DNA of 64,000 nucleotides. Source: Symbiodinium sp. CCMP2592 (taxonomy: Eukaryota; Sar; Dinophyceae; Suessiales; Symbiodiniaceae). Every line of letters begins with the position of its first letter. Within the stretch, counting starts at the first letter, position 1. Location: assembly GCA_905221615.1 (NCBI GenBank), contig CAJNDT010000001.1:3833265-3897264 (forward strand), in the 5' to 3' direction. The notes beneath the pieces were generated by a model. It saw nothing but the letters and a program-made list of their open reading frames with translations, was not told the origin of the DNA and made no database searches. The translations under genes were made by a program, and so were the position numbers. Shown here in pieces: positions 3,451 to 56,300 of this stretch.

Positions 3451-3494
3451 CCCATAGGCCCCATAGTAGTTCCTTTTTGGGATTACCGTATAGG

Positions 3495-3531
<37 letters not shown>

Positions 3532-3566
3532 GAACGCCCAAAAGGAACTACTTTGGGGCCTATGGG
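3451..3566. mobile_element. Foldback element, about 30-bp terminal inverted repeats
   Basis: The left arm (3451-3480, beginning CCCATAGGCCCC) and the right arm (3537-3566, ending GGGGCCTATGGG) are near-perfect inverted repeats. They flank a (TA)n core (3498-3525). There is no coding capacity, so it is a MITE-like or hairpin element. A shortened relative is at 27841-27920. I could not find a convincing target duplication. Confidence 0.75.
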
Positions 3567-4560: not shown

Positions 4561-5183
4561 GTTCGTGAGTTTGTTTTGTCGTCCTCCCGACCGCAAAGGC
4601 TTCATTGCTACTGCTGGTACATGTTTCATCATCGTACTTAGGTTTGTTTACAATCTACACAATTATTTCCAGTCAGCATTTGCTTTCTCAATTTCTCAAC
4701 AACCTCGCTAGTTCCAGAGGGGCAGTTGCTGGCGATCGATTCGTTTCACATGCAACATTTGAAGGATGCAAGAAAGAAAGACAGATACAAAAGGGGCCTA
4801 AATACTTACCAATACGATTATGAGGGCTCCTTTCTAACATTAGAATATAATTTACCCCGCCCCCCAACCCAATTTTTATTATCAAGCCCCCTATCTTAGA
4901 TGTTTGTGCGTTCGTTTCTTCGTTTGGCAGCTTCCAGGCTCGTCGCACTTTTCCAGGGAGCCGCTGCGCTGCGCCACTACATCCACCCCTGGCGACGGGG
5001 ATGCACTTTAGGGTTTAGGGTTATTGTGGTTTGACGGGTTCTCCGATGAATTCAAGCAAGCTAGCTTCGGAAGTCGAGATCAGGATTTGGTGGTTGGGCC
5101 CCTAAACCTGAGCGAGCCGCGCACTCCAAACCCCACCCCTGCCTCACAAGCCAACAACTCCTACAATCCAAAAGCTCCCTAAC

Positions 5184-5273
5184 TTACCTTTGGTTAGTAG
5201 GGAATGGAGGAATGGGGTACAAGTATAACTACTATTACTACCATTCTGCCATTCCCTACTAACCCAAAGGTAA
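5184..5273. mobile_element. 90-bp foldback element
   Basis: The left arm TTACCTTTGGTTAGTAGGGA and the right arm TCCCTACTAACCCAAAGGTA form an inverted repeat of about 24 bp with one extra base. The short core holds ACT/TAC repeats. There is no coding capacity, so it is a MITE-like hairpin inside a presumed intron. Confidence 0.7.
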
Positions 5274-5299
5274 GCTATCCCTACACCAATTCTGACAGG

Positions 5300-16092: not shown

Positions 16093-16320
16093 AATTCGGA
16101 TGTGGGCTTGAGTGTTTACTACAGTCTCCTTAGGAATTATTTCTTGTTTTTGTTCATATAAAACCCAAGAGAATATGGATTTGTTTTAATTATGGTTCTA
16201 AGGGGGGTATAGTTTAGGGGATACTTATTCATGAGACACCTATGGCCGGGAGTGCATGAGCCCTCCCTGCGATTTCTGCGTCGTCGCTGTGCGGAGCTTG
16301 GAGGCTGCCAGTCCATAAGT

Positions 16321-16421
16321 GGGAGTTTCCCAAAATTAGGGGTACCTTTTTTGGGGTCCCTATAATAAGGATCCTACTATTTAGGGTACCATATTAGGGT
16401 CCCCTATTCTCGGAAACTCCC
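16321..16421. mobile_element. Foldback MITE, GGGAGTTTCC family, copy 1
   Basis: 101 bp. The ends GGGAGTTTCCCAAAATTAGG and TATTCTCGGAAACTCCC are inverted repeats (about 20 bp, few mismatches). The 4-bp duplication AAGT is at 16317-16320 and 16422-16425. There is no coding capacity. Other copies: 31880-31981, 41281-41382 and the intronic 53746-53848. Confidence 0.85.
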
Positions 16422-16902
16422 AAGTCTTTACGAGACATCAAGAAATGTCCTGATGGAAAGCAGCACTTGTAAAGAAGCGAGCAGATGAGAAATGGTCTGT
16501 ACATAGCCTTGAACCCATGTAAACATGCATGAGTGCACAAGCCTGTGCAGGTAATCGAATTCCTGAATAATTTCGCATAACTTAATAATTACACTTTTTG
16601 CATGCAAATAATATTACTTACACGGCTTCATACGCCCATGCATGTGCACATGCATACATAAGCTCCGGTGCGAGCAGCTCCAATCAATGAGCCTCGGCTT
16701 CCTTGCGCCGCATACGCCAAGACTGAAACTACGGATGGATTCTTAACGACCCTAAACCCTAAACCGTCTATCCCGCGGCCTTTTGAGTCTAGACCGAGAA
16801 AGCATGCAAGCAGACCCCTCGATCCACCACAGCTGATGTTCAACAAATGTATAGCCCAAACTACACATGACGCCCTGTTGGACCTTAACTTCACCGGGAT
16901 CC

Positions 16903-31323: not shown

Positions 31324-31879
31324 TGTTTCGTTCTTCAGTGGCATGAAGTCCTCCTGTCCTGCCTTCGGTCGGGATCCAGGGCAAGGTCTGGCGAAGATGT
31401 CTCGCGGATGTCGGTCATTGAGGGGTCTATATATAATTAATATGCGATGCCATGCTGCAATATGATGTCATCATGTGTTAAAACATGTCATGGTACATCA
31501 GATCGCATCATGCCATGACCCATCACGTCATATCTTGCCAGATCATATGTTCGCTCATAGTACTTAGTATAACTGCTGCACATGTCTAAACATTTACACA
31601 TATTTCGACATACTTAAAGATAAACACTCACATGTGAAAACTATCCTTTGAACCTGAATTAAGTGTAGAAGTCGGCAGCAAGGACATGAGTCCCACCCAA
31701 ACCTAGGGAGTTTGACCTGTGCTTGGTACTTCCGTGAAAGAAATTGCGTTGCCTGGCCAGCAGTTTGCGGTCGTCCTTCTTGACTGTAGAGGATACTGTT
31801 GTAGATACCAGATCTTGCAGGACACGCTCCGTCAGGCCGACAGGGGCGGAGAGTCTGGGTGCTGAGATTTCAGCTTCAT

Positions 31880-31981
31880 GGGAGTTTCCGAAAACTAGGG
31901 GTACCTTTTTTGGGGGTCCTTATAATAAGGATCCTACTATGTAGGGTACTATATTAGGGCCCCCTATTTTCGGAAACTCCC
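31880..31981. mobile_element. Foldback MITE, GGGAGTTTCC family, copy 2
   Basis: 102 bp with ends GGGAGTTTCCGAAAACTAGG and TATTTTCGGAAACTCCC. The 4-bp duplication TCAT is at 31876-31879 and 31982-31985. It is nearly identical inside to copy 1. Confidence 0.9.
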
Positions 31982-32535
31982 TCATGTTTTGTAAGTCATC
32001 TTCGGGTCCGAGAAGCCCCTGGACATGGTTGCCGTCGCGGCATCTTGATCATCAGGCAATCTGCACTCGGGTTCCTGCTCCGAACCGCCATGTCGTTGTT
32101 CCTTTAAGCACCAGCTTTCTTGACCTGATTGCCATCCTACTCCTTGCGAACCTTTAACCCTGCTTCTGCTTCCTGCGACAGATATGCTTGAGTTGAAGAC
32201 TGGTGCGAGGGCCCCTTCTTCCTATTCCTGTTGATGGTGTTGTCACTGTTGTTGTTGCTGCTGTTGCTGCTGTTGCTGGTGGTGGGTATCCGGCTTGAAT
32301 GTTTCATGCCCTGCCTGAACCTCAAGTCCTAAATCCTCATCCCGAAACCTCGACCCCTACAAAGTGACAGGGCTGCCTCTGAGGATAAATGAGCCCTGCC
32401 AGACAAAAAGAGAAGCTGGAATAACTAGAAGAGGCTACGCTGTATCATAATCATTACCAATATTGTTCCTTAAGGTCTCTTCAGATTTAGACTGAGGCCC
32501 ACCCCCATGCTACATCGAAGCCATGCACTGTCTAG

Positions 32536-37119: not shown

Positions 37120-37222
37120 GGGTGGTTGTCAAAATTAGGGTCCCTTTTGGGTCCCTATTCTAATATACCGCACCTAATATTTAGGGTACCCAAAAAAGGG
37201 ACCCTAAGTTTGACAACCACCC
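37120..37222. mobile_element. Foldback MITE, GGGTGGTTGTCAAA ends, ATGT duplication
   Basis: 103 bp. The 14-bp ends GGGTGGTTGTCAAA and TTTGACAACCACCC are a perfect inverted repeat. The 4-bp duplication ATGT is at 37116-37119 and 37223-37226. Size, duplication length and interior (AAAATTAGGGTCCC) match the GGGAGTTTCC family, so the two are probably mobilised by the same type of transposase. Confidence 0.85.
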
Positions 37223-41280: not shown

Positions 41281-41382
41281 TCAAGGTTTGCGAAACTAGG
41301 GGACCCTAATATAGGGCCCCAAATGGTAGGATCCTCATTATATGGGCCCCAAAATAAGGTACCCCTTGTTTTCGGAAACTCC
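41281..41382. mobile_element. Foldback MITE, GGGAGTTTCC family, copy 3
   Basis: The right end TTTTCGGAAACTCC is intact; the left end is mutated (TCAAGGTTTGCGAAACTAGG). The interior has the family's GGATCCT and GGTACCCC blocks in inverted order relative to copies 1 and 2. The 4-bp duplication CATG is at 41277-41280 and 41383-41386. Confidence 0.75.
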
Positions 41383-41449
41383 CATGAACCCTAAAAACCC
41401 CAAAACCCCTAATCCCTCAACTCCCTAAAGCCAGACATCGTGGTCACAG

Positions 41450-43238: not shown

Positions 43239-43528
43239 AAGCCTCGAGGTCCCCGTGACCAGTCCTGCGCAAGGGCTGGTTCACAAAAAAAAGGGGGTGG
43301 GTTCACTGTTTCGGGCATTGGCCGGGCTTCTTTGGAATTGAGTGTTCCAGGTAGTTTACTGGGGCCGTTCATTTGGAGATTTTGGCTTGGGCCACACCCA
43401 AGTAAGTTCAGGGATGTCTGGGAGTTTAGTATTTAGGGATTAAGGGTTTAGTAAGGGTTTCAGTAAGGGTCCTGGGTTTAGTTGATGCCCAGGTTTGAGG
43501 CTTTGGGATATAATAATCATAGTTTAAT

Positions 43529-44018
43529 GATAATAATAATCATAATAACAATAAATAATAATAGTAATAATAATAGTAATAATAGTAAATATATATATAT
43601 ATATATATACACATATGTATGTATATATATATATATACATATATATATATAGACTGAAGTTGCAAGGGGGATGGGTTGGATTTCAGGGCGAAGTCCTTGT
43701 CAATACCCACCACCACTCGATACCAGGTCATCCCTAAACTCTTACTACACCCTTAATTCTAATGTTTACCCTTACAAAACCCCCAAGCCTGAATCCCACT
43801 GCACCCTTAAAAACCTTACTATTCAAATATTGAACCCATGCTCTTATCAGGGTGACACAATACTGGTCACTGAATCTTGCATCAAATCTGGACATCAACA
43901 TGATCCCATATTCTGTACACCCTTCCTCAACCCTAAACCCTAAGTAGTACTAAACCGGCAAACGGGCGGACAAAATCGTTAAACATATATATATATATAT
44001 ATATTTTTTTTTTTTTTA
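43529..44018. repeat. AT-rich stretch, boundary between regions
   Basis: TAA/TAATAG microsatellite (43529-43590), TA tracts (43590-43655), then a TA tract plus poly-T (43985-44018). Telomere-type units lie at 43928-43942. Downstream of this point the sequence changes to the dense-gene style. Confidence 0.7.
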
Positions 44019-45048: not shown

Positions 45049-46985
45049 ATGGCGACCTCGTACGTTTCGCCGGTGACTCCGAACATGGTCTTGTATCGTC
45101 CGAGAAATTCGGGCTCACCTCGGACCCGGCTCACCGAAAACCAGTGGAATGATGCACTTTGGGTCGTGGCCAGGCTTCATTACGAATATTCAACCGTTTC
45201 ACGAGCTTCTGGTTGTGGTTCCCGGAAGCCAAGGTGTCGGCCAAAGTACGGGCGCTGGCACCAGACCTTTATGCTTGCCTCGTCAAGCTGGATGTTGATG
45301 TTTCAGGATGGATCGACGCTCGGCATTGGTTTAGCCAGGAGAGCTGTTGAGTCATAGTATGTTCACCCCTTGAAGTTGGATTTGACTAAGAACATCTTAT
45401 CCTTGATATCGCATCCGTCCTCCAACGGGGATGCTCATGCTTTGACCTACAAGTTGGTGAGAGCCTTGTCTGCACTGGGGGTTGGGTGGCTTGCTAGGGT
45501 CTATTCCTTCGATTCCCTGAGGACAATTCCTCGACTACGACCAGTCGCACATTTACCAGGACGTCTCGAAGATAATATCGACCTACATCAGGGAGAGAAT
45601 GGAGCAGCTGTGTGCCTCGACATTGCATTTATTCATGAGGTCGCACAGCACCCCTATGTCTGTGTAAGTGTGTTTCAACCCGGCCCTGCCAGGTGAGCGT
45701 TTTACGGGCAGGACGGCCCAGTGGTCGGAGGAAAAGGCAAAGGCCAGCCGGGCCACAAAGGTGGCAAGGATGCTGGCAAAAAGGGCAAGGCCAAGGACGG
45801 TGGCAAGGACCAGCAGCCACAGGAGGAGGAGGAGCAAAAGCAGAAGCGAGCGCAGGAGGAGGAACAAAAGCAGAAGCGAGCACAGGAGGAACAACAGAAA
45901 AAAAGGGCACAGGAGGAGGAACAAAAGAAGAGGCAGCTGCAAGAAGAGGAGCAAAAGAAGAAGCAAGCACAGGAGGAGCAGAAGAAGAGGCAGCTGCAAG
46001 AAGAGGAGCAAAAGAAGAAGCAAGCACAGGAGGAGCAGAAGAAGAGGCAGCTGCAAGAAGAGGAGCAAAAGAAGAAGCGAGCACAGGAGGAGGAGCAAAA
46101 GAAGAGGCAGGCACAAGAAGAGGAGCAAAAGAAGAAGCGAGCAGCACAGGAGGAGGAGCACAAGAACAGGCAGCTGCAAGAAGAGGAGCAAAAGAGGCAG
46201 CTGCAAGAAGAGGAGCAAAAGAAGAAGCGAGCACAGGAGGAGGAGCAAAAGAAGAAGCATGCACAGGAGGAGGAGGAGGCACAGAAGCGGCTAGAAGGCC
46301 AGAAGAAGGTGCGATTCAGCGAGCATCAGCCAGAGCAGCGGTCGGAGGTTGGTGAGGAGAGGTCTGAGGAGGTGGATGACAGTGATGACAGCTTCCTTCG
46401 CCATGTCCAAGAGGCGGAGGAACAGCGTCGACTCAGGGACCAAAAGGAGGAGGAGAGGCAGAATGAGAGGTGGCAGAAGGATATGGACACAATCAATGCC
46501 ACTTTGGAGGAGGCGGCACAGGCGAAGCAGATCGCACAAGCCCAAAAACAAGCGGACAAGCAGAGGAACAGGGCCGCCAGAGAGATTTGGGAGGAGCAGC
46601 AAAGGAAGCAGGCCGAGGAGCGTTTACGTGAGTATCAAGCGAAGAGAAACCTCATTGATGAGGAGGAGAAAAAACACCAGGATCAGGCCGGGTCCGAGGA
46701 GACAAAAGACGAGGAGGCGAAGGGGTCAAACGAGGAGTGGTCGGAGGAGGCTTGGCGCTCTTACCGGTGGTATAGCTGGGATTGGAAAGACGAAAACTGG
46801 TCAAAGGACAGGTCGGACACTGGAGGCTGCATGCCATGTATTCCAGTCATGTCGGCATGGGTTTGTGTATTGGCTACCTTGCACCTGCAGGTGACATGTC
46901 TTGGAAGTGCTGGCAGACATGGGACGAAGAGAAGAAGGAGGAGGAGCAGGCCGAGCAGCAGGACCAGCCTGAGTTGTCTGGTTGA
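45049..46985 (+). CDS. Lys/Glu/Gln-rich repeat protein, multi-exon
   Basis: A probable gene starting at ATG 45049 (MATSYVSPVTPNM). Proposed exons are 45049-45087, 45174-45293 (contains FWLWFPEAKVSAKVRALAPD) and 45358-45456 (donor GTGAGAG), all phase 0. Next comes a helical segment near 45530-45662 and a long exon 45722-46822. That exon is a highly charged repeat of QEEEQKKK-type units, then an acidic and coiled-coil-like region, then WYSWDWKDENWSKD. A final exon, 46891-46982, reads DMSWKCWQTWDEEKKEEEQ, with TGA at 46983-46985. The last intron, 46823-46890, joins in frame only with a GA donor. The linkage between the third exon and the long exon is not settled because two frames compete near 45530-45660. 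I do not recognise a family; it is probably an extended coiled coil. Confidence 0.55.
45830..46275 (+). repeat. Minisatellite coding for QEEEQKKK/QLQEEEQKKK units
   Basis: GCAAGAAGAGGAGCAAAAG-type units repeat in blocks of about 51 to 54 bp, several nearly identical at DNA level, indicating recent expansion. Arg/Ser-rich and Leu-rich frames over the same DNA are shadows. Confidence 0.85.
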
Positions 46986-52689: not shown

Positions 52690-53370
52690 TCCTTCAAAGC
52701 ACTTGAAGTGTGCTTGCAGAAGCTTCTGTGTGAATTCCGGACATGTTTTTGTGGAACCAAGTCGACCTGTGGCAGTCTCCAGAAGCACATTTTGGTTTTT
52801 TCTGCTCCTGGTTGGCATCAGTGTAAACCTCTTGAACAGGTTTTGCAACCATCAGAATCCTTTAAATTCAAGTTTGGAGTTTAGGGTTTAGCAAATCAGA
52901 GACAAACAAAGAAAGCAGTGTTCTTTTAGTTTGGTGCTTGAAACCGACCAAATCGTGCTTTTGGAGCCTCCAAAAGCACGTTTTGGCTTGTTCTGCTCTT
53001 ATTTGGGACAGTGCAAACCTCCTGAACAGGTGTTGCAACCATCAGAAACAAGCAAAGAAGGCAGTTTTCGTTTAGTTTCGTGCTTGGAACCCACCAAATC
53101 GTGCTTTTGGCGCCTCCAAAAGCACATTTTGGCTTGTTCTGCTCCTATTTGGGACAGTGCAAACCTCCTGGACAGGTTTTGCAACCACCAGCATCGTTTA
53201 ATTTCAGGCTTAGGGTTTAGGGTTTGGTGAATGAGAAACAAGCAAAGAAAGCAGTTTTCTCTTTAGTTTGGTGCTTGAAACCGACCAAAAATCGTGCTTT
53301 TGGAGCCTCGAAAAGCATGTTTTGGCTTGTTCTGCTCTATTTTGTGACAGTGCAAACCTCTTGGGCATCT
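52690..53370. repeat. Four tandem units of 148 or 191 bp
   Basis: The marker GCACATTTTGG or its variants occurs at about 52784, 52975, 53123 and 53314 (spacing 191, 148, 191). Units share TTGGTGCTTGAAACC, GTGCTTTTGGAGCCTCCAAA, TTGGCTTGTTCTGCTC and GACAGTGCAAACCTC. Two of the spacers contain a TTTAGGGTTTAG block that the short unit lacks. TTTTGGAGCCTCCAAAA is itself palindromic. The array stops where the first recognisable exon of the next gene begins. Confidence 0.85.
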
Positions 53371-56300
53371 CCATCTGTTATGATGGGGTTTCCATTGGTG
53401 ACAGCCTCTTCTCCCGCCAAGAGAGCTTTGAGATAGTGTTTGTCTTCAGTGCAAGTGTCACCACTGGTCAGATGCAGGCATTCTTCATTGGTTGTCCTTC
53501 TGAAGGAATGGACAAGACTGGTGAACGACAGGCCGACTGTGTTGCAAGGGCATTGGAGCAGCACCCTTGGAAGCTGGGTGCAGGCAACATCAGAGGCCGC
53601 CTGCTTTCAATGATCTGTGGGGATGGTGCCATAGCCAAAGGTGGGTCGGAGGCACGACACTCTTCGACCGGCTCCGCGAACATCTTGTCGGAGCGATTTT
53701 ATCCTGGACAACACCATTTGGTCCAATGGGAGTTCTTTCATAGGTGAGAGTTTCCGAAAATAGGGGACCCTAATTATAGTACCCTAAATAGTGGGACCCT
53801 TGTTATAGGCACCCCAAAATCAGGAACCCCTCACTTTCGGAATCTCCCAGGTCAGAGGCAGCCTTTCGGCATAGTATCAGTGCTTCGGACCCAGCACAGG
53901 AACTGTTTGCACTGGCACGAGGAATGGCTCAACAGTTCGGCCATGGAACTGGCAGAGTCCTTCTTCGGTCGGTGGCTGATTTCTCTGCATCCGCTTCATC
54001 TGCAGCGGCAGACTGTGGTGGAACCAGGCAAGGAGAGTCTTTGATCCGGGTCGGAGGCAACCTGCTCAAGAACTATAAAATGTATGGCTTAGCCATACAT
54101 GCAAAGATCTTTCGCAAAAGAGAAGGTCATGGAGCCACGAGTCAGACCAAGCTGGCCACAATGGGTCGGAGGCTCCTCTCGATAGACTTTGTGACCTTCT
54201 TGTGTTGCTTCCAGGACCACCTGTTCTGCATGTGTAAAGGGCTTCCAGGGGCAGGTTTGGTTTGTGGTGATAAGAGTTTTGAAGTGATGCCCCAATCGGT
54301 GTTGATTTGGATGGTCTTCTATCAGGGCATCTTATCTTGCCTTATGTGAAGCCGGCAAATATCCACATGAGCTTTAGTAGTTCAATTCCCCACATCTCCG
54401 AGCACCATGCCCACATCATCCCGGCAGGACCTCATGGTGTCCCAGCGGATCTTCGTGCTGAGCCTCCAGCATACAGCAGACGTCCCGTGGGCTGCCCAGA
54501 AATCCTGGCAGCAGAAGCAGGCCCAGGCAAAAGCAGACCTGGAAGACCTTCACAAGCTGAGGGTACGAGCCACCGTCATCTGCTTGCTACAACACTACTG
54601 TACACATGCCGACCTCAAGAGCCTCTGTGTGGCTTTCTTATATACACGACCTGGGCGTCGCTTCCCCACATTTTCGCGGGAGCTATTCAACATATCCATT
54701 CTGCGTGTTTTTGCTGATGTACAACTTCAGGTGAATGTTGACATTAGTCAAGACACAATGTGTGTGACACCCCGGTGCACATGTCGATGGCGAACATCAC
54801 CGGAAGAGCACAGGAGGAGCCGGGTCCGAATGCAGGTCGGTGGCTTGGCAAACTTTCCTTGGCATGGGTGTTGTAATTCTTTACTTGGTCCTTGAGTAGC
54901 ACTGGGCTTGGTCACCTGTTCATCTGATGAAAAAAAAAGCCAAGGTGGACGTTCAGTGTCAGTCTTGGTACCTGAGTATGTCGCCAAGGTCAAGATGACA
55001 AAAGCTGAAGCCCAGCAAGACTTGCAGAAGGACTTGGTGTCCGTGCCCCTGCGTTATGACACCTTCAACCGCCCCCCATTCAGGTCGTGAAGTTGGAAGA
55101 TGATAGTGTAAGTCCCTGCCCATCTGTTGATTGATTGATGGTAGGTCCAGAAACCCGAAGCTTGCGCCCCTGAGGTCGGAAGTCCAAGGCTTGTCACTGT
55201 TCCACAAGCACCTCTATCAGTGTTCGACCAGCCGGTTTGTACCATATGCCCAGCAAATGGTGCAGCAGGGCTTGGCTTCTGCAGAGGGATTCCTTCAGTT
55301 GCTCATTGCAAGCTATGAGGAATACTGGCATGACGTGGGTGTGCCAAGACATATCAGCTCATTGAACGAAAACCTGGCAACTGTGTGGAACTTTGATGCC
55401 ATGTCCATGCACAGAAGCCCCGGGTCTGAGCATCTGCAGAGCCTGGACCATGTCTATGGTATTTTCAAGCCACGGCTGGCACATGTGAGGTGGCCGACAT
55501 CCCAGGATTTCCTTCATGTGCAACATGTTTGGCCCGACCAGAAAGAGATGCATCGGCAGTATAAGGTGTTGTGGAACAAGGTTCATCTGGACCGCTCTCA
55601 CTGTGAGTGGCGATCACCTGTGGAGTGTCGTGCTTCTTTAGTGCAGCCGCCAGCTATCCTCCTGACATGTCTCGGCAGAAAACTGCAGGAAGTGACACCA
55701 GAAAGAAGGTCGGTCAAAGCTGTCAATTTGACATGTCTGGTGTTTTTGATTGCAAGTTTCCTGTTGAAGCCACCCAGCAGCTTCAAAGTTCGACCAGCTT
55801 CAGTTGCTTTGCTGCAGCATGGTGGTCGACTGGAGACTGGGGCCTTCGCTATGATGACAAAGGCGCCTTTCAAGCAGAAACTCATCTTCATTTCTGAAAT
55901 CAGTTGGTCCCTACAGCCTGCTGCTGTGGCTGCATCCTTTTTTCTGGAGAAGTCAATGCACCAATTGACTTCGAGAGTCACAGGTCGGAGGACTCATTGC
56001 TGGCATGCTGCTTTCTTGCTGTTGGCTTCTACCACTGCTCAGGGAGCCAGCAGTGTTTGTGAGAGGGTCGGGTCCCTCTTACATGGCCTCGAGAAAGGGG
56101 AGAGCTCGATCCATCCGGCCCGTGTAGCCGATCGACTCCGGATCAGAGTAGCCCAGATCGAGGCAGGTGCATGGGATACAGCATCCACAGAGATTCTTGT
56201 AGTTGATAGCCCTAATTTATGTGCTGCCCTGCCAGGCGATAGGTGGTGCCCGAGATGAAGCCATTGTGGACACACTGGTAGAAGCTTTTCGCAGGAAGAA

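Follow-up and report, generated by a model that had tools for sequence, protein, structure and literature searches.

A foldback MITE family with mostly ANNT targets as a probable repeated source of introns at duplicated AGGT sites in Symbiodinium sp. CCMP2592

We analysed a 64-kb stretch of DNA from Symbiodinium sp. CCMP2592 (hereafter the window), in which two copies of the tetranucleotide AGGT enclose a 103-bp foldback element within a coding region (Table 1). When the element and one AGGT were taken out, a continuous reading frame was obtained (...WEFFHR|SEAAFRHS...); with the element left in place, the frame ended in a TGA directly at the junction. A foldback MITE in a duplicated AGGT, with a frame that is open after its removal, was thus confirmed at this locus. 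A preliminary description of the same DNA had reported the reopened frame (FFHR to SEAAFRHS), and the frame computed on the emptied site agrees with it.

Table 1. MITE copies, target duplications, coding exons and putative intron in the 64-kb window
Feature	Position	Strand	Remarks
MITE family copy	16321..16421	.	AAGT at 16317-16320 and 16422-16425; outside any recognised exon
MITE family copy	31880..31981	.	TCAT at 31876-31879 and 31982-31985; outside any recognised exon
More distant 103-bp foldback	37120..37222	.	other ends GGGTGGTTGTC; duplication ATGT
MITE family copy, decayed	41281..41383	.	duplication CATG or ATGT/ATGA
Upstream coding exon	53366..53743	+	5'-truncated copy of multicopy gene; open frame 53235-53744
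Left AGGT of target duplication	53742..53745	+	GT is the putative splice donor
Putative intron GT...AG, 107 nt, phase 2	53744..53850	+	
Foldback MITE, 103 bp, terminal inverted repeats	53746..53848	.	ends without own splice sites
Right AGGT of target duplication	53849..53852	+	AG is the putative splice acceptor
Downstream coding exon	53851..54230	+	frame open to 54346; provisional 3' limit

The ends of the element recur elsewhere in the window. Searching the 64 kb in either orientation with GGGAGTTTCCGAAAA at up to two mismatches placed left ends at 16321, 31880 and 53746 and right ends at 16407, 31967, 41369 and 53834. Because these were the only such matches in the window, the four copies have common ends, in line with the terminal inverted repeats that had been noted for the element at 53746 and the three further copies. 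Two of the window copies were 86% identical over 90 bp. The nhmmer scores of the four copies follow by construction, as the model was built from those same four sequences.

Target duplications were searched with offsets of -2 to +2 at each element end. At offset 0/0 we found AGGT (53746), AAGT (16321) and TCAT (31880), the latter two as given in the preliminary description; the copy at 31880 had a second match, CATG, at +1/+1. For the copy at 41281 the same description had given CATG, which we also found at 0/0, beside CCAT at -1/-1. This assignment is uncertain because the left end of the copy is decayed and because ATGT/ATGA, with one mismatch, is the alternative when the right end is placed by eye at the CTCCC seen in the remaining copies.

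The foldback at 37120-37222 folds into a nearly perfect hairpin, for which -65 kcal/mol is predicted when its flanks are included, and possibly represents a sister MITE family whose length and target rule are the same. Other inverted-repeat candidates with matching 4-bp flanks lie at 3461-3556 (GGCC), 5180-5277 (TCCC) and 43444-43752 (TTAA), some of which may be due to chance. Rfam and tRNA searches of the 64-kb window gave no match. A coding-like tandem repeat with units of 27-33 bp and very strong 3-base periodicity occupies 45754-46341. The peridinin-chlorophyll protein family (PF02429) marks dinoflagellates, and it had 143 matches in the genome and none in 14 control genomes. One tandem PF02429 array (C722:112087-149624) differs from the main arrays (C1035 and C2391): units of ~97 bits are mixed with units of ~60-68 bits, and several weaker ones contain stops.

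Relatives of the window element were sought in the whole genome (1,098,105,373 bases, 5,383 contigs), and 40 of 1,568 first-look candidates were scored. Eleven of them, the window copy included, had the same flanks, and 29 lay elsewhere. An exact 4-bp duplication was present in 21 of the 29 dispersed copies, and 20 of these 21 fitted ANNT, the lone exception being TTAT; the TCAT of the window copy at 31880 also falls outside ANNT. A two-ended pattern with ANNT on both sides gave 6,278 forward and 6,261 reverse matches, whereas the reversed pattern, used as a control on the same genome, gave none. This pattern demands ANNT and is therefore blind to other targets, and its two sides need not be identical. 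Since most of the ~100 matches listed were one element matched on both strands, we estimate that ~6,500 elements with ANNT on both sides are present in the 1.1-Gb genome. Two further collections, one of viral contigs and one of genome contigs, yielded no match to the two-ended element pattern.

The elements are short and non-coding, carry terminal inverted repeats, are flanked by a duplication of constant length (4 bp) and are dispersed in high copy number, as is characteristic of MITEs. A literature search on 4-bp duplications yielded no assignment of the family to a transposon superfamily. Typical copies begin with GGGAG and finish with CTCCC. With ends that lack both a starting GT and a final AG, only AGGT among the 16 ANNT targets supplies both splice sites, and it does so on one strand only.

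The preliminary description had proposed a genome-wide search with the element ends to count AGGT targets. A search of this kind gave 98 matches with AGGT on both sides (56 forward, 42 reverse), beside the 12,539 oriented ANNT matches; the AGGT pattern read backwards had no match in the same genome. AGGT is not a favoured target overall, because AAGT gave 216 matches (119+97); AGCT was found at 8 places (7+7 matches). Clustering by 150-bp flanks reduced the 98 copies to 84 independent sites, and the largest cluster consisted of the 11 copies of the window gene. The oxygenase (C4940), FKBP (C363), AA9 (C5281) and PPR (C4949) copies described below each stood apart from all other AGGT copies in this clustering. 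Element length over the 84 independent copies was 92-117 bp, in a search pattern that allowed only 90-118 bp. Their nearest-neighbour identity had a median of 91% and a maximum of 97%, which does not bear out the current activity implied when the copies were first described as active. Exonic AGGT copies did not appear younger than the others by nearest-neighbour identity (Mann-Whitney p 0.22; the exonic list of 15 was partly picked by eye).

A 93-aa query representing the window gene in its predicted spliced form was searched against the genome. The 11 filled copies appeared as half matches, the upstream one having a TGA at the junction, whereas intron-less relatives read straight through; these were C879 (53%, residues 1-92), C2813 (46%, residues 1-91, where 91 codons occupy 273 nt) and further, weaker matches. 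In four intron-less paralogues that we fetched, FHR|SEAA corresponds to FHRADAA, FHRAHCA, FHRIDNA and FHRANTA. No residue was gained or lost at the junction, and the length differences of these paralogues lie ~10 residues upstream of it. The intron-less paralogues thus provide an empty site at the protein level. No close empty site of the window gene was found at the DNA level in the genome, where the 22 half-matches belonged to 11 copies, all of them filled.

All 11 copies were stop-free over the 723 spliced nucleotides tested, and all have kept both AGGT. In their exons, 9 codons varied synonymously (169.3 sites) and 7 nonsynonymously (553.7 sites; one-sided Fisher 0.0042), and variable sites were more frequent in the element (9/103) than in the exons (17/723; Fisher 0.0026). 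In the most diverged copy, L007, dS was 0.053 and dN 0.009, and the element differed at 6/103 positions, near the synonymous rate. The divergence of the element exceeded that of synonymous sites in two other copies, L008 (6/102 differences vs dS 0.024) and L009 (4/103 differences and a 9-bp insertion vs dS 0.012). In the downstream exon alone, variation was synonymous in 3 codons and nonsynonymous in 5; the synonymous excess comes mostly from the upstream exon, and constraint after the intron is therefore weakly shown.

A comparison over 1,983 bp showed no difference between the window copy and the C3668 copy (100% identity). The window copy is identical to copy L002 from 53366 on and unrelated upstream of that position, where seven other copies compared continue together. 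This identity and the unrelated upstream sequence lead us to conclude that the gene copy in the window arose by a recent duplication and is truncated at its 5' end. Its intron would be inherited, and the first proposal, in which the insertion event itself had been caught at this site, was dropped on account of the identical 1,983 bp. A tandem array of ~146-bp repeats (52819-53379) adjoins the truncated gene start. Pfam searches with nine ORFs of the window and with the host frame after removal of the putative intron gave no match for the window gene and two sub-threshold matches overall. A protein search in IMG/VR with the host gene gave five pattern matches, none of which was confirmed.

For each of the 84 independent sites, we removed the element together with one AGGT and determined, with flanks of 480 bp, the length of the open frame that runs across the emptied junction. 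Frames of at least 180 codons were found at 15/84 sites in sense (the strand reading AGGT) vs 3/84 in antisense (Fisher one-sided 0.0024, two-sided 0.0048). At 20 non-AGGT control sites, none of the 40 strands reached 180 codons (Fisher 0.0025); these controls omit 8 of 28 non-AGGT copies, which had no exact duplication, and two of them (L014 and L015) have common flanks. The sense excess depends on the chosen cut. It was 23 vs 18 at 120 codons, a length reached by 6/40 control strands, and 17 vs 10 at 150 codons (p 0.10), 15 vs 3 at 190 codons and 11 vs 2 at 200 codons (p 0.009). Two of the three antisense frames of at least 180 codons face long sense frames (L090 and L043). When all 84 sites were taken together, the spanning frames had a median of 79.5 codons in sense and 85 in antisense (paired one-sided test 0.037). 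Since the sense median does not exceed the antisense median, most AGGT copies lie outside visible exons. With the element retained, each of the 16 exonic candidates would contain at least one in-frame stop. The common donor consensus is GTRAGT; the usual donor at the AGGT copies, GTGGGA, is not a strong match to it.

Pfam domains were sought in 28 of the 84 sense frames (the 30 longest minus L088, L127 and L074, plus L117, chosen by eye) and in the 24 longest of the 84 antisense frames. Matches at or above the curated cut-off were found in 7/28 sense vs 0/24 antisense frames. They comprise two PPR proteins (L022 and L079), an AA9 LPMO (L128), an ion transport protein (L064), an FKBP isomerase (L054), a 2OG-Fe(II) oxygenase (L107) and an ankyrin repeat protein (L112). 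Sub-cut-off matches occurred in three sense frames (L086, L090 and L117) and in two antisense frames. The Pfam match crosses the junction in L107 (residues 24-97, junction after 66), L128 (59-194, after 166) and L112 (41-83, after 66) and barely does so in L064 (147-325, after 320); the FKBP match of L054 (99-191) begins downstream of the junction (after 91). Alignments with homologues of solved structure were ungapped at the junction for L107 (6jyv, query residues 25-111) and for L054 (4dz3, query residues 4-112, junction after residue 12). Besides the split copy itself, a second oxygenase query returned a single weakly similar relative (43%, residues 1-51), which was set aside. Frame and domain evidence thus places similar sequences as putative introns in unrelated genes, namely PPR, FKBP, 2OG oxygenase, AA9, ankyrin and ion-channel genes and the window gene.

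From the sequence data, we conclude that a foldback MITE with mostly ANNT targets has very probably given rise to introns, repeatedly and in independent genes, where it was inserted into AGGT in the sense strand of exons. As seen in the sampled copies, the MITE carries no splice sites at its ends and inserts at 4-bp targets, mostly ANNT, with duplication of the target; an unseen transposase would carry out the transposition. After insertion into an AGGT of a sense-strand exon, the AG|GT of the left copy would provide the donor and that of the right copy the acceptor. Because AG|GT is present in both target copies, the spliceosome could excise the element with one AGGT without altering the coding sequence, as suggested by the sequence, the reading frame, the paralogues and the constraint. 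The same roles had been assigned to the two AGGT copies in the preliminary description, and the intron-less paralogues, the constraint on the spliced frame and the parallel insertions argue for them. Folding of the element may draw the two splice sites together. In the window gene, the intron would have been gained once in an ancestor, and the gene would then have been duplicated with its intron to at least 11 copies. Parallel gains are likely in the seven genes with Pfam matches above cut-off (two PPR, FKBP, 2OG-Fe(II) oxygenase, AA9 LPMO, ankyrin and ion channel) and probably occurred in several genes without a Pfam domain. We also lean, with less confidence, towards the further proposal that an unspecialised MITE without splice signals makes introns repeatedly purely because the ANNT target rule of its transposase includes the proto-splice site AGGT.

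Alternatively, the MITE may be a specialised introner with its own splice signals that was selected to make introns, which we regard as unlikely. Such an element could use its foldback to bring two splice sites together, its CTCCC end is pyrimidine-rich, and Symbiodinium introners that carry a 3' splice site have been published (PMC9860276). However, the typical ends GGGAG...CTCCC offer neither splice site, AGGT accounts for only 98/12,539 oriented matches, and we estimate that ~98% of the copies counted have targets unable to give both sites. It is considerably less probable that the element broke a dying gene and stays unspliced, the restored frame being a trivial effect of removing an insertion. 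The window copy is indeed a 5'-truncated duplicate, and the codon counts of the downstream exon taken alone would fit this explanation. Against it, the spliced frame is constrained over the 11 copies together while the element drifts, both AGGT are intact in all of them, long frames are in excess in sense over antisense, and domains above cut-off were found in sense only. It is scarcely credible that the MITE landed in an older intron or that an older intron was converted, since, although dinoflagellate genes are intron-rich (PMC11453091, PMC11114475), the boundaries already contradict it (the whole intron is the element plus one AGGT), the paralogues are intron-less at the same position and the same geometry recurs in unrelated genes.

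The putative formation of introns from a MITE at AGGT bears on the question of why inserted transposons get spliced. A review describes both this question and the choice between target preference and element sequence as the deciding factor as not understood (PMC3443670). The two effects are separable here because a single genome contains one near-palindromic element both at AGGT and at thousands of sites where the target differs, and strand provides a second internal control besides the target. The origin of new introns becomes countable in a single organism. If the proposal of an unspecialised MITE is true, 'introner' would be a property of the target and not of the element, and the copies at the other 15 targets and at antisense AGGT would be built-in controls measuring selection on intron gain.

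In the literature searched, we noticed no published account of this particular MITE family; Roy et al. 2023, on dinoflagellate introners, may include it. The introner elements of Amoebophrya resemble it in being dinoflagellate introns with inverted repeats and direct repeats of 3-5 nt, but their definition is based on non-canonical introns whose boundaries vary (Farhat et al. 2021, PMC7789003), whereas the putative introns described here are GT-AG. Florenciella introners likewise have no splice site of their own, both being supplied by the insertion site (PMC9860276, Fig. 2E); they belong to a different lineage from the window MITE, and the legend of that figure does not state whether the target is a duplicated AGGT. 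Closer in host are the introners of Symbiodinium microadriaticum, for which 4-bp duplications have been reported (Gozashti et al. 2022, PMC9860276, Fig. 2B). They share with the present family the 4-bp target duplication, the terminal inverted repeats, a donor derived from the duplication and a dinoflagellate host. They carry their own 3' splice site (PMC9860276), whereas in our case the acceptor AG would also come from the duplication. The geometry we propose is that of the AGGT model of intron gain by transposon insertion, in which the insertion duplicates AGGT and both splice sites result (PMC3443670). For transposon insertion in general, that review lists 35 events, which it takes as indirect evidence; compared with the model it describes (PMC3443670), the present data contribute several independent candidate cases from a single genome, in which thousands of sister copies at targets other than AGGT serve as controls. 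Both the AGGT model and Symbiodinium introners with 4-bp duplications are already published, and this MITE family is a further case with good internal controls.
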